NCBI GenBank assembly: GCA_017478625.1 | Contig: JAFVDF010000001.1 | Location: 62,001 to 126,000 of the forward strand | From: Alloprevotella sp. | GTDB lineage: Bacteria > Bacteroidota > Bacteroidia > Bacteroidales > Bacteroidaceae | DNA length: 64,000 bases | Direction: 5' to 3' | Part shown: piece by piece, positions 4,003-55,155 of the stretch | Numbering within the stretch: position 1 is the first letter of the stretch | Layout of the letters: each line of letters begins with the position of its first letter | Program-made: the position numbers and the translations under genes | Notes under the pieces: model-generated | Seen by the model: only the letters and a program-made list of their open reading frames with translations | Database searches by the model: none | What the model was told of the DNA's origin: nothing

Positions 4003-4087
4003 GTTCATAGTGTGAAATGTACGTTTCACAGTGTGAAATTCGAATTTCACACTGTGAACTCTGAACTTGCAATATCCCCTTTTCAAA
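4003..4087 (+). repeat. Triple-palindrome intergenic element, copy 1
   Basis: Three 13-bp palindromic units start at 4004 (TTCATAGTGTGAA), 4025 (TTCACAGTGTGAA) and 4046 (TTCACACTGTGAA), exactly 21 bp apart. Units 2 and 3 with their spacer form a perfect 34-bp palindrome at 4025-4058, with centre TTCGAA. The tail at unit 3 + 25 reads AATATCC, a variant of the ATTATGG seen in other copies, and is followed by CTTTTCAAA. The element lies 334 bp upstream of gyrA and just past the glucokinase terminator, so it is the only copy not between divergent genes. Confidence 0.9.
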
Positions 4088-4140
4088 TGGCCCTATGCGT
4101 TCTACGTATGCCAGCCACTTCCAGACAGATATCATAATCA

Positions 4141-4172
4141 AAAAGAGAAGCCTCCTTATGGGGCTTCTCTCT
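4141..4172 (-). terminator. Rho-independent terminator of the galactose operon
   Basis: Stem AGAGAAGCC (4145-4153) pairs with GGCTTCTCT (4163-4171). Read on the minus strand it is followed by a run of five T (complement of 4141-4145). It lies about 25 bp after the stop of the glucokinase gene and closes the galM-to-glucokinase operon. Confidence 0.85.
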
Positions 4173-4196
4173 GTCATAATCTGGTCAATGGATGTC

Positions 4197-5165
4197 CTAT
4201 TCCCAACCAAGGGCAGATGCACCCAATACAGCAGCTTCACTGCCATCGAGAGCAGACACAAGTAACTTGGCTTTGCCCTTGAACGTGAACAGGCTGTTTT
4301 CGTCAAAGGCTTTCTGTATTGGATCCATAATCCAGTGTCCGGCTTTAGTCAGACCACCGAAGAATATAAATGCTTCGGGAGCGCTGAATAGTGCAAAGTT
4401 GGCGCAAGCGGCTCCAAGAATCCGACCGGTATAGTCGAAGATATCTTTTGCAACCTGTTCGCCAGCTTCTGCCGCTTTGAATACATCAAAACTCGTAATC
4501 TTCTCGGGGTCAAGTTCGCGAAGTTGGCTGGGCGCATTAGTCCGTGCGAGAAGCAGACGAGCCGTACGAGCCACGCCAGTAGCAGAACAATAGGTTTCCA
4601 GGCAACCTTTGCGTCCGCAACCACAGTCACGAGCATCAGCACTACGATCGACGATGGCGTGTCCGAGTTCGCCCGCAAAGCCATCACTGCCGTAAACGAC
4701 GTTACCGTCCACTACGATGCCAGAACCCACGCCTGTTCCCAGAGTAATCATTACGAAGTTTCTCATACCACGCGCTGCGCCATAAGTCATTTCGCCCAAA
4801 GCGGCGGCATTAGCATCGTTGGTTACACGGGCTGGAATACCGAGAGCATCACTGAAGAGTTGAGCGATGGGCACATTGCCTTTCCACAACAGATTAGGGG
4901 CATATTCGATATTGCCGGAATAGAAATTGCCATTAGGCGCACCGATACCCATTCCTTTGATTACGTCAATACCACCCACTTCGTCTATAGCAGGACGGAG
5001 GGCTTCTACGCCTGCTTTCACATAGTCGTTGATATCGGGATAGGCACGTGTGCTGATAGCAGTCTTATATTCTACTTGACCGCGCTGATTTACAAGTCCA
5101 AATACGGAGTTGGTTCCTCCCATATCAAGACCGATAGCATATTTTTTTTCGTTTTCGATAGTCAT
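4197..5165 (-). CDS. glk: ROK-family glucokinase
   Basis: 322 aa, usual length for ROK sugar kinases. It phosphorylates glucose (or a related hexose) with ATP in the cytoplasm. The N-terminal phosphate-binding motif GLDMGGTNSVFG is at about 13-24, the ROK signature and acidic catalytic site follow in the middle, and the zinc-binding cluster CGCGRKGCLE is near 181-190. The ATG at 5165 gives an intact N-terminus just before the motif. It is the last gene of the galM-transporter-galK-glk operon, 48 bp after galK, which suggests it handles glucose released with galactose, for example from lactose or galactosides. Substrate specificity cannot be read with certainty from sequence; N-acetylhexosamine kinases are close relatives. 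Confidence 0.88.
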   Translation of the reverse strand: MTIENEKKYAIGLDMGGTNSVFGLVNQRGQVEYKTAISTRAYPDINDYVKAGVEALRPAIDEVGGIDVIKGMGIGAPNGNFYSGNIEYAPNLLWKGNVPIAQLFSDALGIPARVTNDANAAALGEMTYGAARGMRNFVMITLGTGVGSGIVVDGNVVYGSDGFAGELGHAIVDRSADARDCGCGRKGCLETYCSATGVARTARLLLARTNAPSQLRELDPEKITSFDVFKAAEAGEQVAKDIFDYTGRILGAACANFALFSAPEAFIFFGGLTKAGHWIMDPIQKAFDENSLFTFKGKAKLLVSALDGSEAAVLGASALGWE

Positions 5166-5213
5166 AATATTTGATTTTTGGGATGAAAAGGTTAAGTCAG
5201 TTGAATGATTTAT

Positions 5214-6374
5214 TTAACTGAGTTTTCTTGCGCCCGGGCCAATTACAACGTCTATGATGATGGGGTCTTTACCATACTTGGCCTTGAACTTCTCGGTCAC
5301 CACTTTCTTGAAGTTGTCTACGAGTTCGTCTGCTATGAGGTTAATGGTACAACCTCCAAAGCCACCGCCCATAATACGGCTACCCGTCACACCTTCTTCT
5401 TTGGCAATGTTGTTTAGGAAGTCCAATTCCTCACAACTAACCTCATATTCTTCAGACAGGCCATGATGAGTTTCATACATCTTCTGTCCTACGGCTTCAT
5501 AGTCGCCAGCTTCAAGTGCATCACATACTTGTAATACACGATCCACTTCTCCAATGACATAGTGCGCCCGCTTGTAGTCTTCGGCAGATACTCCGTCTTT
5601 GACTTCTTCCAGCATTTCATAGTTGGCATCACGGAGACTTTCAACTTCCGGATGGCGATTCTTGATAACTTCAGCCACATGCTCACAGGACAGACGGCGT
5701 TCATTATAGGGCGAGCCTACCAATTCGTGTTTTACACAGCTGTTTACGAGCACTAACTTATAGCCTTCAGGATTCCAAGGGAAGTAGGCGATTTCTCCAG
5801 AGCGACAATCCATACGCATAAGATGGCCGGCTTTTCCCAGACAGGAGATAGCCTGATCCATAATACCGCAGTTTACGCCTATGTACTTATGCTCTGTCCG
5901 CTGACCTACTTTGGCAAGATCCATGCGCTCTATTTTATTTTCACCGAAGAGGTCATTCAAGGCGAAGGCATAGACACTTTCGAGTGCGGCTGAAGAGGAC
6001 ATTCCTGCTCCAAGGGGAACATCACCTGCAAATGCCGTGTTGAAACCTTCTACAGGAACTCCTAAGGCCATCATCTCACGGCATACTCCAAATATATAGC
6101 GCGCCCAAGTCGTCTTAGGACCTTGTTCGTCGTCAAGAGAAAACTGTACGCGATCTTTAAGATCTATTGAGTATGCATCTACCTTACGTGTTCCATTGGG
6201 GCGGACTTCTGCTATCATTCCCTGCTCTACTGCACCAGGAAATACAAACCCATTATTATAGTCGGTATGTTCTCCAATCAGATTGATACGTCCGGGGGCA
6301 GCATATAGCTGTCCGGGTTCTCCACCGAAATGTTTAATGAATCGAGTGCTTACGTCTTCAACTGTTAGTTTCAT
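5214..6374 (-). CDS. galK: Galactokinase
   Basis: 386 aa, the normal GalK size. It converts galactose and ATP to galactose-1-phosphate, the entry of the Leloir pathway. All three GHMP kinase motifs are present: the galactokinase signature GRINLIGEHTDYNNG near 28-42, the ATP-binding motif PLGAGMSSSAALE near 120-132, and GGGFGGCTINL near 340-350. It sits between the sugar MFS gene (33 bp upstream) and glucokinase in one operon. No galT or galE is in the window, so the pathway must be completed elsewhere. Confidence 0.96.
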   Translation of the reverse strand: MKLTVEDVSTRFIKHFGGEPGQLYAAPGRINLIGEHTDYNNGFVFPGAVEQGMIAEVRPNGTRKVDAYSIDLKDRVQFSLDDEQGPKTTWARYIFGVCREMMALGVPVEGFNTAFAGDVPLGAGMSSSAALESVYAFALNDLFGENKIERMDLAKVGQRTEHKYIGVNCGIMDQAISCLGKAGHLMRMDCRSGEIAYFPWNPEGYKLVLVNSCVKHELVGSPYNERRLSCEHVAEVIKNRHPEVESLRDANYEMLEEVKDGVSAEDYKRAHYVIGEVDRVLQVCDALEAGDYEAVGQKMYETHHGLSEEYEVSCEELDFLNNIAKEEGVTGSRIMGGGFGGCTINLIADELVDNFKKVVTEKFKAKYGKDPIIIDVVIGPGARKLS

Positions 6375-6407
6375 ATTGAATGCTTTTAGTGATGAGTATT
6401 AGTCTTT

Positions 6408-7682: not shown

Positions 7683-7724
7683 AATATGATGATTTAATGT
7701 TTAATATCCAGCGAATAAATGCAA

Positions 7725-8804: not shown

Positions 8805-8858
8805 GGTTTGATTTTATATGAATATATAAGGATTTAATTCTAATATCAAAAGAGCATA

Positions 8859-8892
8859 CAAATATAAGATTTTATCTCGGCTGTGTAGCAAA
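8859..8892 (-). promoter_or_regulatory. Promoter of the galM operon
   Basis: On the minus strand the box TATATTTG (complement of 8859-8866) matches the Bacteroidota -7 consensus TAnnTTTG, and TTTG (complement of 8889-8892) lies 22 bp upstream as the -33 element. Transcription would start near 8850, about 45 nt before galM. Confidence 0.7.
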
Positions 8893-8904
8893 TTTCAGCG
8901 AAAA

Positions 8905-9139
8905 TTTTAATGATTTGTTTATTTCTTACTTTTATTTCCGGCCACAAGTCATCTTGCAATTTACATGTGAGTTTCATCAACAAAGTGATACATCTAATAT
9001 TGAATAAACTATGCGATTGTAATTAAATGGGAGTATTAAAACGATTTGTTTAATTTTCTGATAGTTTAATTATACAGAGCAATAGGCAGAATCCCTACCC
9101 GTGTATCTCCCATACGAATGTTAAATCGATTCGTTTATT
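8905..9139. promoter_or_regulatory. Three related AT-rich motifs upstream of the galactose operon promoter
   Basis: The gap between galM and the next gene (8805-9285) has no credible ORF. It contains three similar sequences: TTAATGATTTGTTTATT (8907-8923), TAAAACGATTTGTTTAAT (9037-9054) and TAAATCGATTCGTTTATT (9122-9139), sharing GATTYGTTTAWT. They could be binding sites of a sugar-responsive regulator upstream of the promoter, or chance in AT-rich DNA. No regulator gene is adjacent. Confidence 0.35.
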
Positions 9140-9285
9140 GTGGCGATTTTGTGAAAAAATATTGCTAAAATGTTCTGTGCGGATTTTCTTACAGGAAGCA
9201 ATAACGATGAGAACCCAATAGAAAACGATATATTAGTCCATAATTATGTGACACATATATAGATGAGGCCAATGTTCCACAGGGA

Positions 9286-9981: not shown

Positions 9982-10006
9982 AGATTCATAAAAAAGCACA
10001 GTCAAA

Positions 10007-18868: not shown

Positions 18869-21331
18869 TCAGTCAAAGAGGTTGTCCTCTGTATGGTTTT
18901 CACTTTGTTGCAAATCAGTCGTCTTATCTCCTTCCATAAGGTTGTCGGCCGATGAAACTAGCAAACTGTTATCTTCTGTCAAGGAGTCCGAATCGGACTT
19001 AGTAGTTGGGATGTAGTAGGTACTGTTGTACAGCTCGGGACGAATAGGTTCAGAGGGTTCTGGATAGACTTTTGCGTATTTTGCTTGGAGTTTGGGGTCT
19101 GCAAGTGCTTTCTGATAGAAAAGCCCCACGATAGGAAGTGCAGTTTTACTGCCTTGTCCGAGCGCACCTGTACGGAAGTGTACGCAGCGGTCTTCGGCCC
19201 CTACCCAAGCGCCAGCCACTAACTGAGGAGTTACACAGACATACCAAGCATCAGAATGATTGTTTGAAGTCCCAGTCTTACCTCCGGCATCTATTTTCTT
19301 ACTCCAGTAGAGGTTACCGAGGTAGTGTTGCATAGATTGCGAGGTGCCACCGGCATCGCGTATGCCTGCTTCCAGCATCTTCTGCATATAAAATGCTGAC
19401 CGCTTAGAGATGGCCCGGTGTTTCTCGGGCTTGGCCTCATAAATCACTTTTCCGTTGGCATCTTCAATCCTCGTAACGAGTACGGGCTCTACATATTCCC
19501 CGTCATTGGCAATGGTAGAATAGGCTCCCACTAATTCTTCTAATTGCATGTCGCTTGAACCCAACGCAAGTGAAGGTGTGGGGTCAAGATGGGAAGTTAC
19601 CCCCATTTTCTGGGCTAGTTTGACAATATTGTCAATGCCCACCTCCTGGCCCACTTTAACGGCCACTGAGTTGATACTTTGCGCAAATGCGGAACGCAGA
19701 GGGAGATCTGCCCCGGAGAAAAAGCCGTTTGCGTTCGTAGGACGCCATATTACATTTTCATTCTTGCTCTTGTCGAAAACTTCCATCTGTACATACGAAT
19801 CGCGCCTCCTGTCCGAAGGGGTCATTCCCTGTTCCATTGCCGCTGCATATACGAAGAGCTTGAATGTAGAACCAGGTTGTCGGCTCGCTGTAACCTTGTC
19901 ATATTGCCAGGTCTTATAATCAATATCACCTACCCAGGCCTTTATCTCCCCAGAATTAGGTTCCATGGCTACAAATCCGGCGTGCATAAGGGCTGCCATA
20001 TAGCGCAACGAATCTGTGGTGGACATATCGCGCTCTTGGATACCATCGTAAGTAAACAGCTTTACCCGGTGCGGTTTATTCAAGTAAAAAGCAACGGAAT
20101 CGGGAGAATCTGCAAATCGAGCCTGTAGGTTTTTGTAAGCACTGGTACGTTGTAATTTTTTCTCAATGAAGTCGGGTATGATTCTTCCTTGTTCATCTCT
20201 CCACGGATCTTGGCCCCGCCAGTGACTATCAAAATTGCGTTGCACAGTGCGCATTTGTTCTACGAGTGCTTCTTCGGCCATTTTTTGCATACGCATATCA
20301 AGCGTGGTAAAAATCTTAAGGCCATCGGTGTAAGGATTTAGTTTGGGACATTTTTCAGCCAGATAATCTGCTACTGCATCGCGGAAATAGAGTGCTTGTC
20401 CGTCGCGCACGGATTCTACTCGGAAGTTCAGGCTGAGCGGAAGTTTTTTCAGGCTGTCAGCCTGAGCTCTCGTGAGACTTCCATAAGCGTGCATGTTTTC
20501 TAAAACCACATTCCGTCGTCCCCTACTGGCCTCCGGATTCAGTGCAGGATTGTATGCAGTAGTAGCCTTGAGCATTCCCACCAAAACTGCGGACTGTTCG
20601 GCCGTCAGCTTATCAGGTGTGGTGTTAAAATAAGTCTTTGCTGCAGTCTTAATACCAAATGCGTTAGAACCAAAATCAACTGTATTGACATACATACGCA
20701 AAATGTCTTCTTTCGAGTTGAAAAGTTCTAGTTCTACAGCAATAATCATCTCCTTGCTTTTTAGAATCAGCATATGCAGTCCTGGAATTTTACCAAGCAA
20801 GCCAGTTCCGTACTCGCTACGCATCTTGAACATATTTTTCACAAGTTGCTGCGTAATGGTAGATGCGCCGCGTGCTCGCCCTTTAGCCGCATCTTTGGCT
20901 GCAGAAAAGAGCCCCGGAATATCTATGCCGTGATGACTGTAGAAACGTTCGTCTTCTGTGGAGATAAGTGCTTCGTAGAATATGGGACTGACCTCGTCAT
21001 AGTTTACGGGAGAGCGATTTTCGTTGAAAAACTTACCTATCAGCTGGCCGTCAGCACTGTATATTTCGCTTGCAGCGGGAGTTTTCGGATGCATAATATC
21101 CTGCAAGGACGGAGAACGGCCAAACAGCCAAAATAGATTCACCGATACAGCAAACACATAAAGCAGTATGAATACAAATAGCGTAAGCAGACACATCCAG
21201 GTGCGCTTCCACCACCCTCCTTGCTTGAAGTGACGAATATATGCTTTCCCATTGCGTTTTAGAAAACGGCCTGTCTTCGTCAGAGCTTTCTGCAAATGAT
21301 CAAGTGCTGTCAGTAGCAGGTTTTTCATCAT
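18869..21331 (-). CDS. mrcA: Bifunctional penicillin-binding protein 1A
   Basis: 820 aa, class A PBP that polymerises and cross-links peptidoglycan at the inner membrane's outer face. A cytoplasmic basic segment precedes one membrane helix at about 45-70. The GT51 glycosyltransferase domain has catalytic STEDERFYSHHG (Glu126) and GASTITQQLVKNMF near 155-168. The transpeptidase has SxxK as GSTFK near 490, SIN further on, and KTG as GGKTGTSNNHSDAW near 700. The C-terminal 60 residues are acidic and Ser/Asp rich with low complexity. The upstream 575-bp gap holds repeat copy 2 and a structured RNA candidate; a minus-strand -7 box TAAATTTG (complement of 21352-21359) is a likely promoter. Confidence 0.95.
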   Translation of the reverse strand: MMKNLLLTALDHLQKALTKTGRFLKRNGKAYIRHFKQGGWWKRTWMCLLTLFVFILLYVFAVSVNLFWLFGRSPSLQDIMHPKTPAASEIYSADGQLIGKFFNENRSPVNYDEVSPIFYEALISTEDERFYSHHGIDIPGLFSAAKDAAKGRARGASTITQQLVKNMFKMRSEYGTGLLGKIPGLHMLILKSKEMIIAVELELFNSKEDILRMYVNTVDFGSNAFGIKTAAKTYFNTTPDKLTAEQSAVLVGMLKATTAYNPALNPEASRGRRNVVLENMHAYGSLTRAQADSLKKLPLSLNFRVESVRDGQALYFRDAVADYLAEKCPKLNPYTDGLKIFTTLDMRMQKMAEEALVEQMRTVQRNFDSHWRGQDPWRDEQGRIIPDFIEKKLQRTSAYKNLQARFADSPDSVAFYLNKPHRVKLFTYDGIQERDMSTTDSLRYMAALMHAGFVAMEPNSGEIKAWVGDIDYKTWQYDKVTASRQPGSTFKLFVYAAAMEQGMTPSDRRRDSYVQMEVFDKSKNENVIWRPTNANGFFSGADLPLRSAFAQSINSVAVKVGQEVGIDNIVKLAQKMGVTSHLDPTPSLALGSSDMQLEELVGAYSTIANDGEYVEPVLVTRIEDANGKVIYEAKPEKHRAISKRSAFYMQKMLEAGIRDAGGTSQSMQHYLGNLYWSKKIDAGGKTGTSNNHSDAWYVCVTPQLVAGAWVGAEDRCVHFRTGALGQGSKTALPIVGLFYQKALADPKLQAKYAKVYPEPSEPIRPELYNSTYYIPTTKSDSDSLTEDNSLLVSSADNLMEGDKTTDLQQSENHTEDNLFD

Positions 21332-21447
21332 TCTTTTTATTTATATCTCTGCAAATTTAATAGGTCGGAGCCATAAGGCGAAACAAAAGTCTGTCCTTTG
21401 CGCCACTTTCTCCCTCTAATCTTTTAAGATAATAATGCAAACGTCAA

Positions 21448-21532
21448 GTTCACAGCATGAAATTCAAATTTCACAGTGTGAAACGCATATTTCACACTAT
21501 GAAATAAAAAATGGGATTATGGAATTTTCAAA
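21448..21532 (+). repeat. Triple-palindrome intergenic element, copy 2
   Basis: Units at 21449 (TTCACAGCATGAA), 21470 (TTCACAGTGTGAA) and 21491 (TTCACACTATGAA), again 21 bp apart. The tail ATTATGG at 21516 is 25 bp after the start of unit 3, followed by AATTTTCAAA. The two spacers are in reverse order and complement compared with the other copies: ATTCAAAT lies between units 1 and 2, and ACGCATAT (reverse complement of copy 5's ATATGCGT) lies between units 2 and 3. The 55-bp triad is thus flipped relative to the tail. It lies 117 bp upstream of mrcA and 33 bp before the -7 box of the RNA candidate. Confidence 0.88.
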
Positions 21533-21564
21533 CCGAATAATTTTACTGTCCCACAGGAATACCT

Positions 21565-21572
21565 TACTTTTG
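21565..21572 (+). promoter_or_regulatory. -7 element of the structured RNA transcript
   Basis: TACTTTTG matches TAnnTTTG exactly. The -33 position, 20 bp upstream, reads TTTT (21541-21544), not TTTG. Transcription would begin near 21580, a few bases before the first hairpin of the RNA candidate. Confidence 0.6.
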
Positions 21573-21579
21573 CGTTAGT

Positions 21580-21848
21580 CTGAAGAGTCCAAGTGACGGA
21601 TAGGACTACATATTGGTTAAATAAGGACGTTTCTTGACGTCATCTTCTATCATCAAACCTCGCAAGTTTAGAACCCAAGAAGATACGGCAAACGAGCGTC
21701 CCACGTTGATGTATGTACGCACAAGTGCCTTGTACGCTTGTGTCCTATAATACATCCCCGGCGTGGGCTTCTCGTTGCAAATCCTTGGGTAAGGCTTCGC
21801 GAGGGCCAGATGATGGGATTGGCAAACGGAATGATGGCCCACGTCTTT
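21580..21848 (+). ncRNA. Rod-shaped structured RNA, candidate 6S-like / Bacteroidales RNA
   Basis: After a small 5' hairpin (21586-21590 with 21603-21607), a nested series of helices forms one long rod: 21623-21630 with 21841-21848, 21649-21654 with 21809-21814, 21658-21663 with 21799-21804, 21673-21679 with 21784-21790, 21692-21696 with 21771-21775, 21700-21705 with 21762-21767, 21708-21714 with 21750-21756, and 21720-21725 with 21737-21742. A closing stem, one large asymmetric bubble (about 18 nt against 26 nt) and a long terminal arm resemble 6S RNA, which sequesters RNA polymerase. The Bacteroidales-1 motif is another possible match. I see no clear terminator, so it could instead be a long 5' leader of the gene at 21907. 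Overlapping short ORFs on both strands are not protein-like. The structure is well supported; the identity is inference. Confidence 0.6.
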
Positions 21849-21906: not shown

Positions 21907-22593
21907 ATGAAAAGATTATTCTTCTTTTCCATGTTGTTGCTTGTGGCCCTTTGTGCTACAGCGAAAAAAATCAAAGTATCAGTTAGTCCTGCCACGGCCA
22001 AGATTTATGTGGATGGATCTTATTATGGCGAAGGACAAGCGCTACTGAACATTCCTAAAAAAGAAGGCTTTGTTGTCGTCAGAGTTGAGGATAACGGCTA
22101 CGTTCCCATAGAGACACGCATTTTTTCAACGGATACGCGCTCGGCTATCTCTTTCAAATTGAGAGAGGATCCCTCTGTTGAGGCTACCACCGAGTATGGA
22201 AACGCAAATAAGTATTTTACGGTGCGTGTAAACAAGGATTTGTACAAAGTAGATGACAAGGGAAAGGTGGATGCCGAATTAGCTTGGAAAATGATACATG
22301 CTATTATTCTGAATTATTTTGACGAGATACAGACCAGCGACATGGCATCTGGCTATGTACAGACTGCTTGGGTTTACAAAACGTTCCCAGAAGCAGAAAA
22401 AGCCATCCGTACTCGCGTGTCAGTCAGAGAGACCTCCTTGGGTGGAGACCTGTCCTTCCAGATAAAAATAAGTTCACAGGAATCGTCAATGCGTGGCCGA
22501 AGAAATGCGGACAACTTCAAGGATTCTAATCGCATACTGAAGGATGTGGCTCCTATTATTTCAGAATTCCAAAGTCGCCTTGGTAAACTATAA
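21907..22593 (+). CDS. Secreted PEGA-like domain protein
   Basis: 228 aa. A signal peptide (MKRLFFFSMLLLVALCATA) is followed by a short basic stretch and a PEGA-like beta module at about 23-85: KVSVSPATAKIYVDGSYYGEG, then a hydrophobic VVVRVEDNGYVPIETRIF. PEGA modules are found in surface-layer and envelope proteins and probably mediate binding to carbohydrate or protein. The C-terminal half, about 95-228, is mixed alpha/beta with a conserved-looking WKMIHAIILNYFDEIQ helix and no motif I recognise. It is 9 bp ahead of the next secreted protein, so the two form an operon. It lies about 60 bp after the structured RNA. Confidence 0.75.
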   Translation: MKRLFFFSMLLLVALCATAKKIKVSVSPATAKIYVDGSYYGEGQALLNIPKKEGFVVVRVEDNGYVPIETRIFSTDTRSAISFKLREDPSVEATTEYGNANKYFTVRVNKDLYKVDDKGKVDAELAWKMIHAIILNYFDEIQTSDMASGYVQTAWVYKTFPEAEKAIRTRVSVRETSLGGDLSFQIKISSQESSMRGRRNADNFKDSNRILKDVAPIISEFQSRLGKL

Positions 22594-31789: not shown

Positions 31790-32683
31790 TTATTTCTTAA
31801 AGTTTTGCCAAACCCACATAGACTTGTCAAATTGTGCCTCTATGCGGTTCTCTACAGAGTCTGGCAAAGCGGAGAAAAAGTCTATCCCCGTGATTTGTTC
31901 TACCTCATCTACGGATACAGCACAGCTTTCTTTGGGTTGCGAACTGCCATTGTTCTTGAAAATAAATCCTATGGCCTGAGGTTTTGGATCCGTGCGCATA
32001 ACCACTTTATAGAAGGCTTCAGGTACAACCACCTTGTGCTTGCCAATAGTCTTATGCTGACGAGCGTAAAGTACAGGGCCACAAACCACGTAAACTTCTC
32101 CGTATTTTCTGGCCCATACTCGTGTCTGCTGTTCCAACTCGTTCCAGTCGTTGGCATTAAGCCCGCGGTGTTGTGGACAAATATTGGAGAAAAGAAAAGT
32201 CTGTGCCAATGCTTTCTCATCCCATTTGTTGTCTCCGGCGGGACACATGTGTCCGCGATCATAACCGCTGTTCATGTAATCGTAAGTATCCACTCGTGCT
32301 CCTTGAGCCTCGGAGTCGGTGCGGAACTCCATGTCTTCGCGACTTGCATAACCACGTGAGTGGGCGGCCGTAAGTTTCCATGCCACGTAATTGGGTATTT
32401 TGTTGTCGGCATTATACGATACGGTATAACCTCGGCGTGTGAGAATCTGCGAGCGTACTCCTTCGGGCAGTTTCTGAATCAAAAGTGAGGACGGGGTATC
32501 GTTTTCTGCCGAAGCATCAGTCCCGTTTTCTTGCAGGATAGATAAAAGTGATTCTTGCTGTGTGGCTTCGTCGGATGTATTCTTTCCCCCAAAAAATACA
32601 TAGAGCTGACAGAGGCATAACACACCTAAAATACTCCATAATCCTTTCCGGGAAATAGGCAACTTGGGTTTATTGTTAGACAT
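31790..32683 (-). CDS. DNA/RNA non-specific endonuclease, exported or membrane anchored
   Basis: 297 aa. The NUC1/NucA family is recognised by the catalytic motif YDRGHMCPAGDNKW (Asp142, Arg143, Gly144, His145) and by FSNICPQHRGLNANDWNELE near 165-184, which contains the metal-binding Asn. It hydrolyses single- and double-stranded DNA and RNA with Mg or Mn. A hydrophobic segment at 14-32 acts as a signal anchor, followed by a Ser/Asp/Gln-rich linker. It presumably degrades external nucleic acid for nutrition or defence. First gene of a two-gene operon with the nitroreductase; repeat copy 3 is 81 bp upstream. Confidence 0.92.
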   Translation of the reverse strand: MSNNKPKLPISRKGLWSILGVLCLCQLYVFFGGKNTSDEATQQESLLSILQENGTDASAENDTPSSLLIQKLPEGVRSQILTRRGYTVSYNADNKIPNYVAWKLTAAHSRGYASREDMEFRTDSEAQGARVDTYDYMNSGYDRGHMCPAGDNKWDEKALAQTFLFSNICPQHRGLNANDWNELEQQTRVWARKYGEVYVVCGPVLYARQHKTIGKHKVVVPEAFYKVVMRTDPKPQAIGFIFKNNGSSQPKESCAVSVDEVEQITGIDFFSALPDSVENRIEAQFDKSMWVWQNFKK

Positions 32684-32763
32684 AATAGTGGTATTTCAAA
32701 TTAAATGGCTCCAATCTTTCCGCAAAGGTAAGAAAAGATTTTAAAAGCCTATTGCGCAGTCTG

Positions 32764-32848
32764 TTTCACAATGTGAAATATAGAGTTCACAGTGTGAAAT
32801 TTAAATTTCACACTGTGAAACGAAAAACGCCATTATACCATTATTTTA
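32764..32848 (+). repeat. Triple-palindrome intergenic element, copy 3
   Basis: Units at 32765 (TTCACAATGTGAA), 32786 (TTCACAGTGTGAA) and 32807 (TTCACACTGTGAA), 21 bp apart. Units 2-3 with the spacer are a perfect 34-bp palindrome at 32786-32819, with centre TTTAAA. The tail at +25 from unit 3 is ATTATAC (32832), preceded by GAAAAACGCC as in copy 4. It lies between the divergent nuclease (81 bp) and etfB genes, 57 bp before the etfB -33 element. Confidence 0.92.
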
Positions 32849-32904
32849 CGACATAATCTAATGGACGTATTATATAGGCCTACTCGCTGATAGGTCCGAA
32901 TAAT

Positions 32905-33028: not shown

Positions 33029-33898
33029 ATGAAACTAAAAATCATTGTGCTGGCCAAGCAGGTGCCTGATACTCGCAACGTGGGTAAGGATGCCATGACG
33101 CCCGAAGGAACAGTCAATCGCTCCGCCCTGCCTGCCATTTTCAATCCCGAAGATCTTAACGCGCTAGAGCAGGCGCTTCAACTCAAAGACCAGTTCCCTG
33201 GTTCGACTGTTCATATTCTGACGATGGGTCCCCCGCGTGCAACAGAAATTATCCGCGAGGGATTGTTCCGTGGGGCCGATGGCGGAGTGCTTTTGACCGA
33301 CCGCGCTTTTGCCGGAGCCGACACGTTGGCCACCAGCTACGCTCTGGCCACTGCCATTCGTAAGATAGGAATGCCAGACATCGTTATAGGCGGACGACAG
33401 GCTATTGATGGCGATACGGCGCAGGTTGGTCCGCAGGTAGCGCAGAAACTTGATCTGAACCAGGTTACCTACGTGACTAAAATCAATAGTATAGTGGATG
33501 GAAAGATCAATGTGACGCGCCATATCGACGGAGGTGCCGAGACAGTTGAGGCTCCGTTGCCCATACTGCTTACTGTGAATGGCGATGCTGAGCCATGTCG
33601 CCCGCGCAACGCTAAACTTCTGATGAAATACAAGCGTGCAACGGCGCCAATGGAACGTACGGAAAATATGCCGTATAAGGAGGAATTTGATAAAAAGCCC
33701 TACTTGACGGTGACACAATGGAGCGTGGCAGATATAGAAGGCGACTACAACCAATGCGGATTAGCGGGCTCGCCCACGAAAGTAAAGGCCGTGCAGAATA
33801 TCGTATTCAAAGCTAAAGAAAGTAAGCGCCTGTCGGCTGACGATGCCGAGGTGGAAGCCCTTATTCAGGAGCTTTTAGCCAGTCATACTATCGGATAA
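33029..33898 (+). CDS. etfB: Electron transfer flavoprotein beta subunit
   Basis: 289 aa. With EtfA it carries electrons between acyl-CoA dehydrogenases and the respiratory chain or, in bifurcating forms, ferredoxin. The adenine nucleotide-binding loop is clear: GRQAIDGDTAQVGPQVAQKL near 129-148. The N-terminus MKLKIIVLAKQVPDT is typical of the family. This longer type occurs in anaerobes, where ETFs can be bifurcating, but that cannot be decided from sequence alone. First gene of etfB-etfA-membrane protein-acyl-CoA dehydrogenase; etfA follows after 18 bp. Confidence 0.95.
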   Translation: MKLKIIVLAKQVPDTRNVGKDAMTPEGTVNRSALPAIFNPEDLNALEQALQLKDQFPGSTVHILTMGPPRATEIIREGLFRGADGGVLLTDRAFAGADTLATSYALATAIRKIGMPDIVIGGRQAIDGDTAQVGPQVAQKLDLNQVTYVTKINSIVDGKINVTRHIDGGAETVEAPLPILLTVNGDAEPCRPRNAKLLMKYKRATAPMERTENMPYKEEFDKKPYLTVTQWSVADIEGDYNQCGLAGSPTKVKAVQNIVFKAKESKRLSADDAEVEALIQELLASHTIG

Positions 33899-42568: not shown

Positions 42569-44647
42569 TTAATACCATTCGCCTGCATTGTCGTCAGCAT
42601 TGAAATCGGTATCTTCTTCGTGTTTTTTTGCAGGAGGCAGTTGTTTTAAGTTGCCTTTTTCGTCAAACAAGCCAAAGGTAGTATTCAGTACACGGAATTC
42701 TGTACGGCGGTTGAGTGCATTGGCCACCTCTTGCTGTGCGGGATAAAGTCGTTCGATAGTTTGCACATTCAGCGTGTCGCCCACATTTAGGAAGAGGTAT
42801 TGCTCGTGTAGCTTTTTAGAAACGACGACAGGTCGCGTTTTACCATAACCTACTGCAGTCAGTCGGTTTCTGTCGATGCCTTGATTGATTAGATAATTGA
42901 CCACGTTTTGTGCACGGGCTTGAGAGAGTCGCTGATTATAGGCGTCGCTTCCTCGATAGTCCGTGTGGGCGGCAAGTTCGATGGTTACATTGGGATTCTC
43001 CTGTAATAATTTTACAAGCCTATTGAGCGCGACGGTGCTACTGTCGGTGATGACAGCTTTGTCAAACTCGTAGTTGATTCCCCTTATGAGGACTGGCATG
43101 TTGATATTGGGAAGCGGAAACTGCAGTACATACTGCATCTCTATCTCCCTGCTTTCAGTCTGCAACTGGTTCAGAATGTTCAAAAAACCGTCACAAGCGG
43201 CCAGGAAGAGGTATCGCACGCCGGGCTCCAACGGTTCTTCAAAACTGCCGTCCGTACGTAGCCCGATTTTCTTATTGGTGCCGTCAGTGCCAACCATATA
43301 GACTTGTGCGGCAGGCAGTTCGTACCCATCCTGCTCATAGACCCATCCTTTGACAGATTGCAGGTATTCGGGATAAGAAAAGGAGAATATTTTATCCCAA
43401 CCCCGCCCTCCGGTGGCGCGAGAACTGGAAAAATAGCCTTGATTATGGAGTCCTTCAAAAGTCATACCGAAGTCGTCGCCATTAGAATTCATTGGGGCTG
43501 GAAGTGGCTCCACGGTCCAATTCAGACGCTCGCCCTGCTGTCGGGCCTTATAAAGGTCGAGTCCGCCAAGGTTGGGCAGTCTGTTATCAGAGGAGAAGTA
43601 CAAATCGCCATTAGGGCGAAACGTCGGAAAACACTCATTGCCTTTGGTGTTGATATCCGGCCCGAGATTTTCAAGGTTTGTAGGTGTACCTTTCTCTATG
43701 CGCACGCGCCACAGGTCCAGTCCGCCAAAGCCTCCGGGCATATCTGAGGTGAAATACAAATATTGTCCGTCGGGCGACAAGGCAGGATGTGCGTAACTGG
43801 ATAATGTATCGGCCGTAATCTTCAGGGGTTGTGCTTTTCCCCATTGGGCGTCCGTGCGTTTTGACATATATATTTCCGCCATACGAGGATAGCGTCCATC
43901 GGTTTTACAGACTGTAAAATACATTGTCTTACCTTCCTTGTCAAAACAACAAGCCCCTTCATCATCCTCCGTATTGAGCGATTCGTCGGCAGGCTCGGGT
44001 CTTTTCCATTGTCCGTTCTCGTCGCGCTTAGCATAGTAGATGTCGCCTGGCTTCATAGCAGTAATGCCCGAAATAGAGCCACCTTCTACCTGATTGCGCG
44101 TGGTGGAGAAATAGATTTGTTCGGCATCTGTGCCCAGCAGAGCCGGAGAATAGTCAGCGCGCGAGGAGTTAAAAAGAGCTACAGGCTTAACCGTATAGTA
44201 AGAACCGCTGTCTTTGAGTGTGGGAGCCATCTGCGCAGCCTTTAGTCCCTGCAAGGCATCCACGTCATCGGGATGTAGGTCAAGATAAGCCTGATAGGAC
44301 GTTACGGCACCGTTGTAATCTCCCTGTGAACAGAGCATGTCGCCGATACGAATATAGGTTACCGTATCCGTATATTTGTAGCGTTCTGCATTCTTATAAG
44401 CCGCCAGCGCGCGCGCCGTATTTCCGTAGCGACGATAGGCTTCGCCCATATTAAAGCATAGTTGTCCACGCTTCAGCCGGTTCTTTGTGGGGGTGCGTTG
44501 GTAGGCCTGACGATATAAGGCTGCCGCTTCGGCATATTCACCTATGCTCAGCGCATTTTCCGCCCTTCGCTCGGCGCGTTCAGCCGTGTCGCAGGCATGA
44601 AGCATTATACCTGCCAAAAGTACGATAAAGATATTCCGCCGTTTCAC
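42569..44647 (-). CDS. porE: PorE-like T9SS lipoprotein (TPR, beta-propeller, OmpA domain)
   Basis: 692 aa. A lipobox (IMLHAC, Cys19) marks it as an outer-membrane lipoprotein. The order is TPRs at about 25-140, a PD40/WD40-like propeller at about 150-420 (repeated blades such as ALSPDGQYLYFTSDMPGGFGGLDLW and TFRPNGDLYFSSDNRLPNLGGLDLY), a short beta module at about 430-510, and an OmpA-type peptidoglycan-binding domain at about 520-660 (INYEFDKAVI, TIELAAHTDYRGSDAYNQRLSQARAQNVVNYL). This domain order matches PorE, which anchors the type IX secretion ring to peptidoglycan. OmpA-family relatives outside T9SS share parts of it. Repeat copy 4 lies upstream. Confidence 0.8.
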   Translation of the reverse strand: MKRRNIFIVLLAGIMLHACDTAERAERRAENALSIGEYAEAAALYRQAYQRTPTKNRLKRGQLCFNMGEAYRRYGNTARALAAYKNAERYKYTDTVTYIRIGDMLCSQGDYNGAVTSYQAYLDLHPDDVDALQGLKAAQMAPTLKDSGSYYTVKPVALFNSSRADYSPALLGTDAEQIYFSTTRNQVEGGSISGITAMKPGDIYYAKRDENGQWKRPEPADESLNTEDDEGACCFDKEGKTMYFTVCKTDGRYPRMAEIYMSKRTDAQWGKAQPLKITADTLSSYAHPALSPDGQYLYFTSDMPGGFGGLDLWRVRIEKGTPTNLENLGPDINTKGNECFPTFRPNGDLYFSSDNRLPNLGGLDLYKARQQGERLNWTVEPLPAPMNSNGDDFGMTFEGLHNQGYFSSSRATGGRGWDKIFSFSYPEYLQSVKGWVYEQDGYELPAAQVYMVGTDGTNKKIGLRTDGSFEEPLEPGVRYLFLAACDGFLNILNQLQTESREIEMQYVLQFPLPNINMPVLIRGINYEFDKAVITDSSTVALNRLVKLLQENPNVTIELAAHTDYRGSDAYNQRLSQARAQNVVNYLINQGIDRNRLTAVGYGKTRPVVVSKKLHEQYLFLNVGDTLNVQTIERLYPAQQEVANALNRRTEFRVLNTTFGLFDEKGNLKQLPPAKKHEEDTDFNADDNAGEWY

Positions 44648-44766
44648 AAGGAAATAGATAAAGAGCCTTATTAGACTACAAAGTTAGATATTCCGATTTA
44701 ATTTTGAGATAATACCTTCTAAAAATCCCCTTATATAAAATATAAAGGCCATATTTCCGTGGCAGA

Positions 44767-44851
44767 TTTCACAGTGTGAAATGCGGAGTTCACACTGTGA
44801 AATTCAAATTTCACGCTGTGAACTGGAAAACGCCATTATGGAATTTCCAAA
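44767..44851 (+). repeat. Triple-palindrome intergenic element, copy 4
   Basis: Units at 44768 (TTCACAGTGTGAA), 44789 (TTCACACTGTGAA) and 44810 (TTCACGCTGTGAA), 21 bp apart. The tail ATTATGG at 44835 is again 25 bp after unit 3, preceded by GAAAACGCC and followed by AATTTCCAAA. It lies between divergent porE (120 bp) and nagA (204 bp from the start), and nothing else recognisable fills the 324-bp gap apart from promoter boxes: CAAAGTTA at 44679-44686 (minus-strand -7 for porE) and the nagA box. Confidence 0.9.
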
Positions 44852-44922
44852 TCAGAAGGAGATGTCAATAGATTTCGCTATAGAATCTGCCAATTCCATT
44901 TTACAATTCATCAATATTTTTA

Positions 44923-44930: not shown

Positions 44931-44971
44931 CTTGGTTGAAAAATTTATTGGTACTACTAAATAAGTTTGGC

Positions 44972-46126
44972 ATGAAACAAATCTACAACGGTAAAATTCT
45001 TACTCCTTCGGGTTGGCTGACTGATGGCTCCATTCTGGTAGATGGAAGCAGAATTGTAGAAGTAGTAAACACAAATTTGCCAATTGCAGAAGCAGAACGA
45101 ATTGACGCTAAGGGCGGAGCAATCGTTCCGGGGGGGATAGAACAACATTGCCACGGCGGAGGTGGCCGCGACTTTATGGAAGGGACTGAGGAAGCCTTTC
45201 GGGTAGCCATCAAGGCCCACATGCAGCATGGTACAACGGCCATATTCCCCACTCTCTCCTCTTCAACGATGCCTATGATATATGCAGCGGTGGAGACGGT
45301 AGAGAATTTGATGAAAGAGCCCGACACGCCGGTCCTTGGCCTGCACTTAGAGGGCCATTACCTTAATCCAGTCTTTGCTGGAGGCCAGATGCTGGAGAAT
45401 ATCAAGAATCCAGATCCTGAGGAATATATTCCCCTGCTCAACTCCACAGATGTAGTAAAGCGTTGGAGTACCGCGCCCGAACTTCCCGGTACTGAAGAAT
45501 TTGCCAAATACTGTCGTGAGCACGGAGTGCTTAATGCCATAGCCCATACGAAGGCAAATTATCACGAAGTTCTCCAAGGTTTCAAGTGGGGCTATACTCA
45601 TGCCAACCATCTCTTTAATGCGATGCGCGGATTCCATAAGAACAGAGAATTTAAGCACGAAGGAACAGTTGAATCGGTGCTGGACATCGAAGACATTACT
45701 GTAGAGATGATTGCTGACGGCATACATGTACCGCCCGTTATGCTCCACATGGTTTATGCCATCAAGGGTGTAGAGCGCACTACGCTTATTACAGACGCAC
45801 TCGCAGTAGCCGCAAGCCAAAGTACAACGGCTTTTGACCCGCGCGTCATAATAGAAGACGGTGTTTGCAAGCTCAAAGATCGTAGTGCCTTGGCCGGATC
45901 GATTGCCACAATGGACCGATTGGTTCGCACGGCCGTGCAACAGGCGCGCATCCCTCTCGAAGATGCGTGCAGGATGGTCAGCGAAACTCCTGCCAAGATT
46001 ATGAATGTGTACGACCGCAAGGGTTCTTTGCAGAAGAATAAGGATGCAGACATCTGTATCTATGACGACAAGCTAGAACTCCGTTATGTCATGGCAATGG
46101 GTAAGGTTGTAAAGAACGAACTGTAA
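44972..46126 (+). CDS. nagA: N-acetylglucosamine-6-phosphate deacetylase
   Basis: 384 aa from the ATG at 44972 (MKQIYNGKILTP). The frame is open to 44936, but that lies at or before the likely transcription start. It removes acetate from GlcNAc-6-phosphate in amino-sugar catabolism and cell-wall recycling. Amidohydrolase landmarks are VPGGIEQHCHGGGGRDFMEG near 51-70 with the H-x-H pair, LHLEGHYLNPVFAGGQ near 124-139 with the metal Glu, THANHLFNAMRGF near 209-221, and the catalytic Asp in ITDALAVAAS near 269-278. It is followed by a DUF5063 gene 16 bp later. Confidence 0.95.
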   Translation: MKQIYNGKILTPSGWLTDGSILVDGSRIVEVVNTNLPIAEAERIDAKGGAIVPGGIEQHCHGGGGRDFMEGTEEAFRVAIKAHMQHGTTAIFPTLSSSTMPMIYAAVETVENLMKEPDTPVLGLHLEGHYLNPVFAGGQMLENIKNPDPEEYIPLLNSTDVVKRWSTAPELPGTEEFAKYCREHGVLNAIAHTKANYHEVLQGFKWGYTHANHLFNAMRGFHKNREFKHEGTVESVLDIEDITVEMIADGIHVPPVMLHMVYAIKGVERTTLITDALAVAASQSTTAFDPRVIIEDGVCKLKDRSALAGSIATMDRLVRTAVQQARIPLEDACRMVSETPAKIMNVYDRKGSLQKNKDADICIYDDKLELRYVMAMGKVVKNEL

Positions 46127-48823: not shown

Positions 48824-48825
48824 AT

Positions 48826-50944: not shown

Positions 50945-51167
50945 GGAGGTTTATTTTATAAGATTATAAGCGGATTGGTGAGAAGAATGGATTGATTGCA
51001 TAATGCAATTTTTTTCCAATTGCCTGCAAAAATAATAGAAATACTGAACTGGGAAAGGATTTCCCGTGCTTTTATTCGCATTGTATAAGTGACTTTTTGA
51101 AATTTCCGGCGCTATCGACGGGCAGTATGTCCGTATTTTTAAAGGAGTGCTTATTTTTGCAAAAAAA

Positions 51168-52445: not shown

Positions 52446-52452
52446 GGATGCC

Positions 52453-53715
52453 CTAATCAAATCGGATGGCTTTCGCAGGTTGTATGCGACTTACAAGTAG
52501 GCTTGGGACTATAAGGGCCAGCAATGTGATGATGAAAGTACCCAAGTTCAAGAGTAGTATAATCCACACGTTGATATCTACGGGCAAGACGCGCACATAA
52601 TAGGTGGAAGGATCCAGTTGCACTATTCCTGTGGCCGATTGAAGCCAGAGAAGACCACAACCCAGCAGGTTGCCGATAAGAAGGCCTTTTAAGACAATAA
52701 ATGCGGCATAATAAAGAAATGCGTGTCGTATGCGCGTATTTGTACTGCCTAAGGCTCTGAGCAATCCCACGTCACTTGTGCGCTCCAATATCAGTATCAA
52801 CAATCCTGCGCTCATACTGAAAATAGCCACCAAAGCCACTAACGCCAGAATGAGCCAGATGTTCATATCCAACAGCGACAGCCAACTGACCACCTGCATA
52901 GTACGGGGATTTTCCTGCAGGCTCAAAACCGCCAATTCCTCGTCGTTGTGGCCATACAAGAACGGCATAACCGCTTCGCGCAAGCCCGTTGTCCAGACAT
53001 TCAAGTCTTCTTTCTGATCAGAAAATATCTCCAACCCACTGACTTCCTCGTCCGTCCATCCGTTAAGCCTTTGCACCGTCTGCATTGGAACCAGGACTAT
53101 ATTTCTGTCATATTGCTTTACGTTGGTCTGATAAAGCGCGGCTATCGTAAAACGGCGCATCTTGACATTTTCCTCAAAGAAATAGGCGAAAACCCTATCT
53201 CCCACTTTCAGGTTCAAGGCATTAGCCTGAGTTTCGGATATGACAATTTTGTTTTGGCTGGCTGAATCGGCCATATTGGGTAATTCCCCACTCACAATAG
53301 CCGTTTGCAGATACGACGTGTCATATTCGGGCGACAAACCCTTTAAGAGCACGGCCTGAAAGTCGGCTTCCGTTTTCAAGACGCCCATTTTTTCGGCAAA
53401 ACGCTGTATGTGTTCCACTCCGTTGGCCCGGCAAACGGAAGCAGCCAATAAGGAGTCGGGCCGAACCGAATAGGCTTCAGGAGAAGAGAATGAGCGAATG
53501 TCCACCAACTCTGCGTGTGCGGAAAATCCTGATAGTTTTTTATTGATTTCTCCCTTAAATCCGCGCACGATACCTACGGAAATGAGCATAACAGCCAGTC
53601 CGAGTGCTATGCCCGCCGTAGCAATACGTACGGCGGGTACTGAAGCGCGTCGGCGACTGGTGTCTTTTCCTGAACCGCGATAGAAGTGTTTGGCTAAATA
53701 AAAGGGAAAATTCAC
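52453..53715 (-). CDS. LolC/E-like ABC transporter permease (FtsX family)
   Basis: 420 aa. One N-terminal helix (about 29-51, AGIALGLAVMLISVGIVRGFKGEI) is followed by a periplasmic MacB-like domain (about 55-265) and three C-terminal membrane helices (about 285-310, 330-360, 385-410) ending with the PAKAIRFD motif that contacts the ATPase. This is the lipoprotein-release permease layout, with one protein type for LolC/E in Bacteroidota. The ATP-binding LolD gene is not in the window. 19 bp downstream of the aminotransferase gene. Confidence 0.88.
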   Translation of the reverse strand: MNFPFYLAKHFYRGSGKDTSRRRASVPAVRIATAGIALGLAVMLISVGIVRGFKGEINKKLSGFSAHAELVDIRSFSSPEAYSVRPDSLLAASVCRANGVEHIQRFAEKMGVLKTEADFQAVLLKGLSPEYDTSYLQTAIVSGELPNMADSASQNKIVISETQANALNLKVGDRVFAYFFEENVKMRRFTIAALYQTNVKQYDRNIVLVPMQTVQRLNGWTDEEVSGLEIFSDQKEDLNVWTTGLREAVMPFLYGHNDEELAVLSLQENPRTMQVVSWLSLLDMNIWLILALVALVAIFSMSAGLLILILERTSDVGLLRALGSTNTRIRHAFLYYAAFIVLKGLLIGNLLGCGLLWLQSATGIVQLDPSTYYVRVLPVDINVWIILLLNLGTFIITLLALIVPSLLVSRIQPAKAIRFD

Positions 53716-53734
53716 GACAGAACAAGCTTTTCAG

Positions 53735-54940
53735 TTAGCGTGAGCCATTTAGTTGGTTGTAAGCCTCCAGTGCTTTGCGAAGCACTAATACGGCCTTCTC
53801 TAAGTCCTCTTTTTTGAGCACATAGGCCATTCGGACCTGATCGCGCCCCTCTCCCGGCGTAATATAGAAGCCAGAAGCCGGAGCCATCATTACGGTAGAA
53901 TTTTCGTAACGAAAGTCGGACAGACACCAAGCACAGAACTTTTCTGCATCATCTACCGGCAATTTTACCATTGTATAGAAGGCTCCCATCGGAATAGGCG
54001 CATATACACCTGGAATACGGTTCAACTGATCAATCAGATAGTTGCGCCGTTCCACATATTCCTCATAGCAAGCGCGTTGATATTCGGGTGGCGCATCCAG
54101 AGAGGCTTCTGCCACGATTTGTCCCAGCAATGGGGGGCTCAGACGGGCCTGACAGAATTTCATCACGGCTTCGCGCACCGCTTTGTTCTTTGTAACGAGA
54201 GCCCCGATACGTATTCCGCATTCACTGTAGCGTTTTGATACAGAATCTATCAGCACTACTTTGTCTTCTATTCCCTCCAGATGGAACGCGCTAATATACG
54301 GCGAGCCGGTATAAATGAACTCTCGATAGACTTCATCGGAGAAGAGAAAAAGATCATACTTCTGTACTAAGTCGCGAAGTTGGTTCATTTCGCGCCGCGT
54401 ATAGAGATAGCCTGTCGGATTATTCGGATTGCAAATCATAATGGCGCGTGTGCGCTCATTGATAAGTTTTTCAAATTCTTCTACCTTGGGTAGCGCAAAA
54501 CCTTCTTCTATGGTGGTCGTTATCGTACGGATGACAGCGCCCGCCAATATGGCAAATGATTTATAGTTGGCGTAACCGGGCTCGGGCATAATAATCTCGT
54601 CTCCCGGATTAAGACAAGCCAGAATAGCGAATAATACAGCCTCGCTGCCCCCCGAGGTTATGACGATGTCTTCGGGAGAAAGCGAAATATTGTATGTGGC
54701 ATAATATTGGGCAAGTCTGGTGCGGTAGGACAGAAAGCCCTCGCTCGGACTGTATTCAAGTGTGCTACGATTCACTTGCTTAAGCGCATCAAGTCCCTCC
54801 TTAGGTGTAGGCAAGTCAGGCTGGCCTATATTCAAATGATAGACCTTTACTCCTTGTGATTCGGCCAAGGTAGCAAGCGGAGCCAACTTTCGGATGGGCG
54901 AAAACGGCATTATTTTAGCGCGATCGGATATGGTGGTCAT
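53735..54940 (-). CDS. PLP-dependent class I aminotransferase
   Basis: 401 aa. Aspartate/aromatic aminotransferase fold type I: VYHLNIGQPDLPTPKE near 34-49, GGSEAVLFAILACLNPGDEIIMPEPGYANY near 97-126, NPNNPTGYLYTRREM near 175-189, DEVYREF near 206-212, and the PLP lysine in DSVSKRYSECGIRIG near 235-249. The amino donor and acceptor are not determined by these motifs; aspartate or aromatic amino acids are most likely. Repeat copy 5 is 132 bp upstream on the divergent side. Confidence 0.92.
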   Translation of the reverse strand: MTTISDRAKIMPFSPIRKLAPLATLAESQGVKVYHLNIGQPDLPTPKEGLDALKQVNRSTLEYSPSEGFLSYRTRLAQYYATYNISLSPEDIVITSGGSEAVLFAILACLNPGDEIIMPEPGYANYKSFAILAGAVIRTITTTIEEGFALPKVEEFEKLINERTRAIMICNPNNPTGYLYTRREMNQLRDLVQKYDLFLFSDEVYREFIYTGSPYISAFHLEGIEDKVVLIDSVSKRYSECGIRIGALVTKNKAVREAVMKFCQARLSPPLLGQIVAEASLDAPPEYQRACYEEYVERRNYLIDQLNRIPGVYAPIPMGAFYTMVKLPVDDAEKFCAWCLSDFRYENSTVMMAPASGFYITPGEGRDQVRMAYVLKKEDLEKAVLVLRKALEAYNQLNGSR

Positions 54941-55070
54941 ACTAAAAAAGGTTTCTTTCTTAAGCGAAAATAATCAAATCTTGCCATACGACGTTTGCGC
55001 AAAACGATTTAATCGGACTTATCTGTAAAAAAATGGCTCCTCTCTGTCGGTTTCATATTCGTACTTTGGA

Positions 55071-55155
55071 GTTCACGGTGTGAAATATGCGTTTCACAGT
55101 GTGAAATTCAAATTTCACACTGTGAACTGAAAAACCGGATTATGGTGCTTGCACA
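55071..55155 (+). repeat. Triple-palindrome intergenic element, copy 5
   Basis: Units at 55072 (TTCACGGTGTGAA), 55093 (TTCACAGTGTGAA) and 55114 (TTCACACTGTGAA), 21 bp apart. The tail ATTATGG at 55139 is 25 bp after unit 3, preceded by GAAAAACCGG. It lies between the divergent aminotransferase and HU-like gene; its end is 17 bp before the -7 box of the latter. The remaining 311-bp gap shows nothing else. Confidence 0.92.

Follow-up and report, generated by a model that had tools for sequence, protein, structure and literature searches.

Five copies of an intergenic element lie in the 64,000-nucleotide stretch of Alloprevotella sp. DNA analysed here (hereafter the window; GenBank assembly GCA_017478625.1, contig JAFVDF010000001.1, positions 62,001 to 126,000), each comprising three 13-bp palindromes of the form TTCACA-N-TGTGAA at a spacing of exactly 21 bp. 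Based on their occurrence in this and related genomes, we read these arrays with good confidence as chromosome-wide docking sites for a sequence-specific HU-fusion protein that would be autoregulated and probably nucleoid-organising. The candidate (210 aa; 55252-55884, + strand) is encoded directly downstream of copy 5 and is here called HU-wHTH, after its HU domain and a winged helix-turn-helix (wHTH)-like region. What is observed, at the level of sequence, are the arrays, their phase, their linkage to this gene and the conservation of their positions with changed letters. An earlier note, made from the letters of the window, had proposed a phased multi-dimer site for a global regulator or nucleoid protein, and the comparative data favour that proposal: letters change between relatives while position and 21-bp phase are kept, and the letters track one recognition-helix residue of the protein whose gene carries an array.

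The copies were found where the earlier note had placed them, with cores at 4004..4058, 21449..21503, 32765..32819, 44768..44822 and 55072..55126 (copies 1 to 5, none with a strand), the last being the putative autoregulatory array. Aligning the 40 copies of the genome revealed a dyad-symmetric element centred on unit 2 and spanning approximately 215 bp, which in the window corresponds to extended elements at about 3924-4138, 21369-21583, 32685-32899, 44688-44902 and 54992-55206. Information content is high from the first unit to the third, linkers included, and falls off gradually on either side to near background beyond approximately ±110 bp, with the 21-bp phase held outward to about ±107 bp (conserved T on the left and A on the right at ±40, ±61, ±82 and ±35, ±56, ±77). 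Palindrome letters are kept across copies while linkers and flanks vary, and this gradual fading without sharp element ends bears out the earlier view that the element is not a transposon relic. A tail with ATTATGG or a near variant, previously described at a fixed distance after unit 3 in every copy, has ATTATGG exactly in copies 2, 4 and 5, ATTATAC in copy 3 and only AATATCC in copy 1; it does not stand as a separate feature, as the 21-bp phase simply continues there with a weaker unit, which occurs on both sides (the first outer units of the 40-copy alignment are CCATAAT-like on the left and ATTATGG-like on the right).

The element is dispersed across its own genome (1.257 Mb in 18 contigs, 59% complete). 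A genome-wide search with the three-unit pattern recovered 40 copies, each with at most one mismatch, against 0 for a reversed-pattern control. An unbiased scan of periods of 10-40 bp, run on those parts of contig C14 that had been fetched, singled out 21 bp alone: at this period 21 positions scored at least 15, against at most one at every other period and 0 in shuffled sequence. A palindrome period of 14 bp was also enriched alongside 21 bp in own-genome stretches (22-30 clusters). Consecutive copies are at least 7.9 kb apart (random placement respects a limit of 7.8 kb with P = 5e-5), and the 11 copies between 25 and 155 kb of C14 have a mean gap of 11.0 kb with a coefficient of variation (CV) of 0.24, compared with a mean CV of 0.84 for random choices of intergenic gaps (P = 0.0005). 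Other contigs are sparser, such as C15 with 6 copies in 403 kb. The earlier note had named random spacing and copies lying mostly inside genes as observations that would speak against it; both were tested for and neither was seen.

Orientation of the flanking genes was convergent at 13 copies, tandem at 14 and divergent at 13, compared with 24, 52 and 24, respectively, for background gaps of at least 150 bp in the same DNA (crude open reading frame (ORF) calls in both cases). The earlier description, four copies between divergent genes and one upstream of gyrA, holds for the window, but that bias is therefore local, and a link to divergent promoters is unsupported genome-wide; a purely divergent-promoter element was accordingly rejected. 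These counts bear on the possibility that the units are RNA hairpins or bidirectional terminators, for which the potential of the palindromes to fold and the 13 convergent placements could be cited. However, as many copies lie between divergent genes, an exact 21-bp phase would serve no obvious purpose in RNA, only a tRNA matched Rfam at the gathering threshold, and the letters covary with a protein residue (below), and we reject this explanation as having hardly any probability. They bear equally on ordinary operators, that is, on HU-wHTH being a global repressor or activator whose sites would influence nothing but the neighbouring promoters. Of the 40 copies, 27 (13 divergent, 14 tandem) have a promoter side, and an array upstream of the regulator's own gene is the classic layout of autoregulation; nevertheless, the 13 copies between convergent genes, the even spacing with its 7.9-kb minimum, which is unexpected for promoters, and the lack of functional relationship among the genes beside the five window copies make operator function alone unlikely in our judgement, if a serious contender.

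HU-wHTH as the protein reading the arrays emerged from clustering of ORFs at array loci, in which two families spanned five lineages, ABC-type ATPases and HU-wHTH; wherever the clustered loci included the HU-wHTH gene, which was in five lineages, it directly adjoined an array. The window gene had been described earlier as HU-like, which holds for its N-terminal domain, but the protein also carries a C-terminal winged-helix-like region, and the gene is central to the interpretation offered here. With its start taken as the ATG at 55252 (a longer ORF begins with GTG at 55198), the protein scores above the cut-offs of both PF18291 (HU-HIG; 59.4 bits vs 26.2) and TIGR01201 (HU_rel; 75.6 vs 68.6); HU-wHTH proteins of three other lineages passed PF18291 and reached 50-55 bits for TIGR01201, below its cut-off. 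Matches of the C-terminal region to winged-helix proteins were weak (HTH_DeoR at 13.1 bits vs a cut-off of 21 in one relative; the C-terminal region of Fic protein 8cil at E = 0.01), and the Pfam entry for PF18291 describes the domain as 'fused to wHTH, Ig, or Glycine-rich motif'. Neither the ParB nor the TetR family was among the Pfam matches of HU-wHTH (for ParB, up to E = 1). The presumed recognition helix, within the winged-helix-like region, contains Arg181 (STAWRELQ). Full-length HU-wHTH (E ≤ 1e-35) was detected in 103 of 301 genomes of the family and in 6 of 393 from an order-wide sample, counts that may underestimate carriers given that the first survey scored at most 7-10 candidates per genome. 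Within the family sample, the gene occurred in 10 of 15 genomes with TTCA two-unit matches vs 93 of 286 without (p = 0.010).

Arrays upstream of HU-wHTH genes were assessed by scoring 400 bp for four palindromic, mutually similar units at each of 17 lags (14-30 bp). A first set was chosen by protein score with no regard to arrays, none having been fetched earlier (33 genes, reduced to 32 by dropping L330 for its short upstream region; the partial match L319 was also excluded), and a second set of 20 was hand-picked across genera before the upstream DNA was seen; some genes in this and the following test are close relatives. In the first set, 21 bp was the winning lag upstream of 29 of 32 genes, compared with 3/19 for HU genes without wHTH (none with z > 3), 1/32 for coding, 0/30 for downstream and 2/32 for far-upstream DNA. 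The second set gave 14/20 (coding control 1/20), for a combined 43/52. The presumed regulator's own gene is hence preceded by an operator-like array, as is found for autoregulated operators, and autoregulation of the HU-wHTH gene through this array is likely on these grounds. Paralogs within one genome have arrays with differing letters, for example in G339 and G281. In G281, each of two intact paralogs has an array, the letters of which differ, and an HU-wHTH match with an internal TGA (C89:17083-17700; L268, L310) has no upstream array.

The letters of the half-sites covary with one residue of the protein. Of 76 HU-wHTH genes, 64 entered this comparison (12 were excluded for lack of a clear array or a short upstream region) and 56 passed z > 3. 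The residue, X in A-x-X-E-L of the presumed recognition helix and Arg181 in the window protein, was discovered by a column scan over 42 genes. Where X is Arg, CA occupied positions 3-4 in at least 0.6 of half-sites (YYCA) for 29 of 30 proteins, compared with 1 of 26 where X is another residue (Fisher p = 1e-13), with the 0.6 threshold chosen after the fractions had been seen. The association held with one protein per 50%-identity cluster (Arg 13/14 vs non-Arg 1/11, p = 3e-5) and among genes fetched after X had been picked (3/3 vs 0/10, p = 0.0035), and it is fitted by Parabacteroides distasonis (Arg, ATCACGACGTGGT), Bacteroides finegoldii (Ile, ACGAAGGCTTTGT) and, weakly, Phocaeicola massiliensis (Leu, TCAACGGCATCAA; z = 2.2). 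Residue-letter covariation of this kind is a direct observation, and it points to HU-wHTH as very likely the protein that binds the arrays.

The motif beside the HU-wHTH gene also predicted arrays elsewhere in the same genome. Five genomes in which the gene has CCACA- or TCACA-type units were used, two of which (G107, G100) had a few TTCA matches known beforehand and three of which (G280, G268, G070) had none. Searching each genome with its gene-adjacent motif returned 59, 63, 50, 28 and 35 two-unit matches (at most two mismatches), with 0 in the control in all five, and multi-copy arrays are thereby predictable from the gene's own motif. G280 is represented by one 4.03-Mb contig, a near-complete chromosome, and contains 20 four-unit arrays with an empty arc at 1.04-2.73 Mb (42% of the contig, P = 0.0005). 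As GC skew in 20 sampled stretches placed the origin at roughly 3.7-0.3 Mb, with the terminus lying near 2.3 Mb, arrays in this genome avoid the terminus side.

Other Bacteroidales carry arrays with the same geometry and other letters. A scan of 84,980 species genomes matched at least 97 loci, of which 60, all from Bacteroidales metagenome-assembled genomes, were read as multi-unit arrays and 37 were excluded on visual inspection as coding sequence or simple tandem repeats; 8 of the 60 overlap a called ORF, including two long ORFs (L099, L101) that may be coding. The 60 arrays share the 13+8 geometry with different letters. RUG10906 accounts for at least 34 loci, mostly of four units, with TTCATG, TTCACG or TTCAAA half-sites, and its genome has 133 three-unit matches (control 0), which would equal approximately 67 four-unit arrays. 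Among 58 same-genus genomes, the three-unit pattern of the window was present at up to one mismatch in three (its own, G005 and, as a weak match, G026), and no 21-bp excess was found in 400 kb sampled from G004, a more distant member of the genus.

The nearest relative found, G018 (EtfB 92% identical, coding DNA approximately 25% diverged), carries TTCARGSCTTGRA units; a two-unit search allowing up to three mismatches gave 28 matches, with none in the control. Comparison by blastn synteny covered the 18 own-genome positions with flanks that could be aligned to the G018 DNA fetched, and 17 of these are occupied in G018 by 21-bp-phased arrays with different letters: 10 are TTCARG-type and 7 are of a second type, type B, with ATTGCATWATGCAAT-like units also in 21-bp phase, and one position (L001) had no array found. 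The counterparts of copies 2 and 5 have TTCARG-type units, that of copy 3 YYCAAG-type units, and those of copies 1 and 4 type-B units (TTNNATWATG and TTGCATWATG, respectively). In its core, type B is similar to the weak outer units of own-genome arrays, and it (ATTGCATWATGCAAT-like plus 6 bp, approximately 4-6 units) makes up the majority of G018 arrays (e.g., L209:1686 and L202:2614, C1/C4). Across the whole of G018 contig C1 (352 kb), 21 bp was the only strongly enriched period in a five-unit scan (33 clusters vs 9 at period 14, the next). Its 32 arrays (excluding cluster 262178, judged spurious ahead of the spacing analysis) have a mean gap of 10.1 kb, a CV of 0.41 and a minimum of 5.0 kb, and 17 arrays between 100 and 300 kb of C4 have a mean gap of 11.3 kb and a CV of 0.28; random intergenic choices gave a CV of about 1 and were as even in 0 of 20,000 draws. 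HU-wHTH itself is 47.8% identical between the two genomes; only three of the 75 reciprocal best hits are lower, with a median of 76.6%, which places its gene among the fastest-changing. If all sites are read by one protein, a change in its specificity would force them to change jointly. The case is an unusual natural one of concerted turnover, in which dozens of conserved positions switch letters together with the geometry fixed.

This comparison also addresses whether the arrays were left behind by a repeat that spread and was homogenised through recombination, be it a miniature inverted-repeat transposable element (MITE), a repetitive extragenic palindromic (REP)-like sequence or an element with target immunity. 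Such a repeat would be multi-copy with lineage-specific letters, and target immunity would produce a minimum spacing of several kilobases. Nonetheless, the sharp ends and the empty sites in relatives expected of a transposon relic were not seen: the boundary is gradual, palindrome letters persist amid varying linkers and flanks, and 17 of 18 positions are occupied in G018 despite the divergence of its coding DNA. Furthermore, the letters vary with a residue in a protein that is separate from the element, and no element ends were seen in the inspected intervals, in which target duplications were not searched systematically. We reject the repeat explanation as very improbable.

A further alternative is that the sites belong to another DNA-binding protein and that the HU-wHTH gene is merely one of its targets. 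Type B in G018, for which no binder was found, and a G281 motif unmatched to HU-wHTH genes would fit this; on the other hand, HU genes without wHTH showed no array excess, letters covary with a residue of the wHTH, and differently lettered arrays accompany paralogs in the same genome, which together render it improbable. Several observations do weigh against docking arrays for HU-wHTH. No type-B binder was found in G018, where most arrays are type B (no regulator was recognised among the genes flanking them by reading of protein starts, with no profile search), and the TTCATTGTTTGAA motif of G281 was upstream of 0 of the 3 full-length HU-wHTH genes seen. The lag of 21 bp was not the best in 9 of 52 upstream regions, and 5 of 15 genomes with TTCA two-unit matches lacked the gene at E ≤ 1e-35. 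Whole-domain similarity was uncorrelated with motif similarity (Mantel p = 0.69), the correlation with letters being confined to a single residue found by scanning columns. Terminus avoidance rests on a single genome, G280. Two carriers had few arrays in the parts sampled: G276 had two in 400 kb, one with other letters, which was too few to replicate terminus avoidance there, and P. distasonis had one, the gene's own, in 205 kb of a 375-kb record. The differently lettered G276 array (C1 ~426448; L392:6448) has four CCCACGWCGTGGA-like units between TolC-like and ComEC-like ORFs (named by reading) and, being unlike the array of that genome's HU-wHTH gene, suggests a second protein. The P. distasonis record (NZ_OY725779.1; L405, L409-L412) has up to five palindromic-repeat clusters at a lag of 22 bp and none at 17-20 or 23-26 bp, with lag 21 only at the gene's own array. 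This record and NZ_OY725932.1 (L407; B. finegoldii) are labelled plasmids, and the presence of recA, clpB, rpoZ and genes of that kind suggests pieces of chromosome.

Docking of HU-wHTH would work as follows. The element would serve as a docking strip for a protein fusing a DNA-bending HU domain to a winged-helix domain, of which one dimer would read each 13-bp palindrome via two winged helices, with Arg181 contacting the YYCA half-site. The 21-bp spacing would set successive dimers two turns apart on the same face of the helix, and three or four strong sites could nucleate a bent or wrapped complex that spreads onto weaker flanking sites. The HU-wHTH gene would be controlled via its own array, and some lineages would keep the motif at dozens of intergenic sites chromosome-wide, where the complex probably helps nucleoid organisation beyond nearby promoters. 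From the sequence data we infer physical binding, one dimer per unit, bending and autoregulation; a nucleoid function is more speculative. Because positions are conserved, spacing is even and orientation is indifferent, we would favour a nucleoid role over a simple regulon, and regard such a role as evenly poised.

Dispersed chromosomal sites for a dedicated protein are a known principle. The matS sites of MatP, a chromosome-organising protein, are dispersed 13-bp palindromes, but they are single units confined to Ter and bound by another protein family, and G280 arrays show the opposite of terminus confinement. Lrp/AsnC feast/famine regulatory proteins (FFRP) occupy 13-bp palindromes approximately two helical turns apart, with DNA wrapped on oligomers, and differ in protein family. 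SlmA sites are not known to be 21-bp-phased arrays, and SlmA, which acts on FtsZ, is TetR-like, a family that HU-wHTH did not match. To our knowledge, no chromosome-organising system has been described for Bacteroidales. As to placement, G280 arrays resemble the 24-52 SlmA-binding sites (SBS) per nucleoid of Escherichia coli, which lie in the origin-proximal two thirds (PMC3573117). For Noc, the nucleoid occlusion protein of Bacillus subtilis, PMC4331003 describes approximately 70 palindromic Noc-binding sites (NBS) chromosome-wide, none at the terminus, with nucleation and spreading; G280, the one near-complete chromosome mapped, likewise has scattered palindromic sites that avoid the terminus side. 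However, Noc is a ParB homolog and HU-wHTH an HU-HIG protein, and the system proposed here has 3-4-unit 21-bp-phased arrays, an HU fusion and fast letter turnover.

None of the systems compared combines 21-bp-phased arrays, an HU fusion as their proposed reader and letters replaced in concert at conserved positions. The HU-HIG family entries (PF18291, TIGR01201) give no binding site, and the family also includes HU proteins without wHTH, which lack the array excess. A 2017 paper is said to have named HU-HIG; neither these arrays nor any function of the HU-HIG protein family came up in our literature searches. A family without assigned function in those searches would now be tied to genome-wide sites, and the pairing offers a readable protein-DNA code, testable in cultured gut bacteria. 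If the nucleoid role is true, this is a candidate Bacteroidales chromosome-organising, perhaps division-coordinating, system. More tentatively still, and with somewhat less than even confidence, the arrays may represent an undescribed Bacteroidales class of chromosome organiser, in which phased complexes at fixed, ~10-kb-spaced, terminus-avoiding positions have their letters replaced in concert with the recognition helix, as an equivalent of Noc, SlmA or topological boundaries.

In the window, copy 1 lies between gyrA (1147-3669, - strand) and a ROK/glucokinase gene (4197-5165, -), and copy 2 between genes for an mrcA-type penicillin-binding protein (18869-21331, -) and a PEGA-domain protein (21907-22593, +). 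Copy 3 is flanked by a nuclease gene (31790-32683, -) and an electron transfer flavoprotein gene (33029-33898, +; etfB in the earlier note), copy 4 by an OmpA/PD40 gene (42569-44647, -) and an amidohydrolase gene (44936-46126, +), and copy 5 by an aminotransferase gene (53735-54940, -) and the HU-wHTH gene. The gaps holding the copies, once counted as five of the six longest gene-free gaps, rank 2, 4, 7, 8 and 9 with a crude ORF caller, which may have missed genes in some longer gaps. Elsewhere in the genome, a hairpin-like inverted repeat, TTGCACTATGC..GCATAGTGCAA, adjoins one array (G000 C14 35346-35379; L022:547-580).

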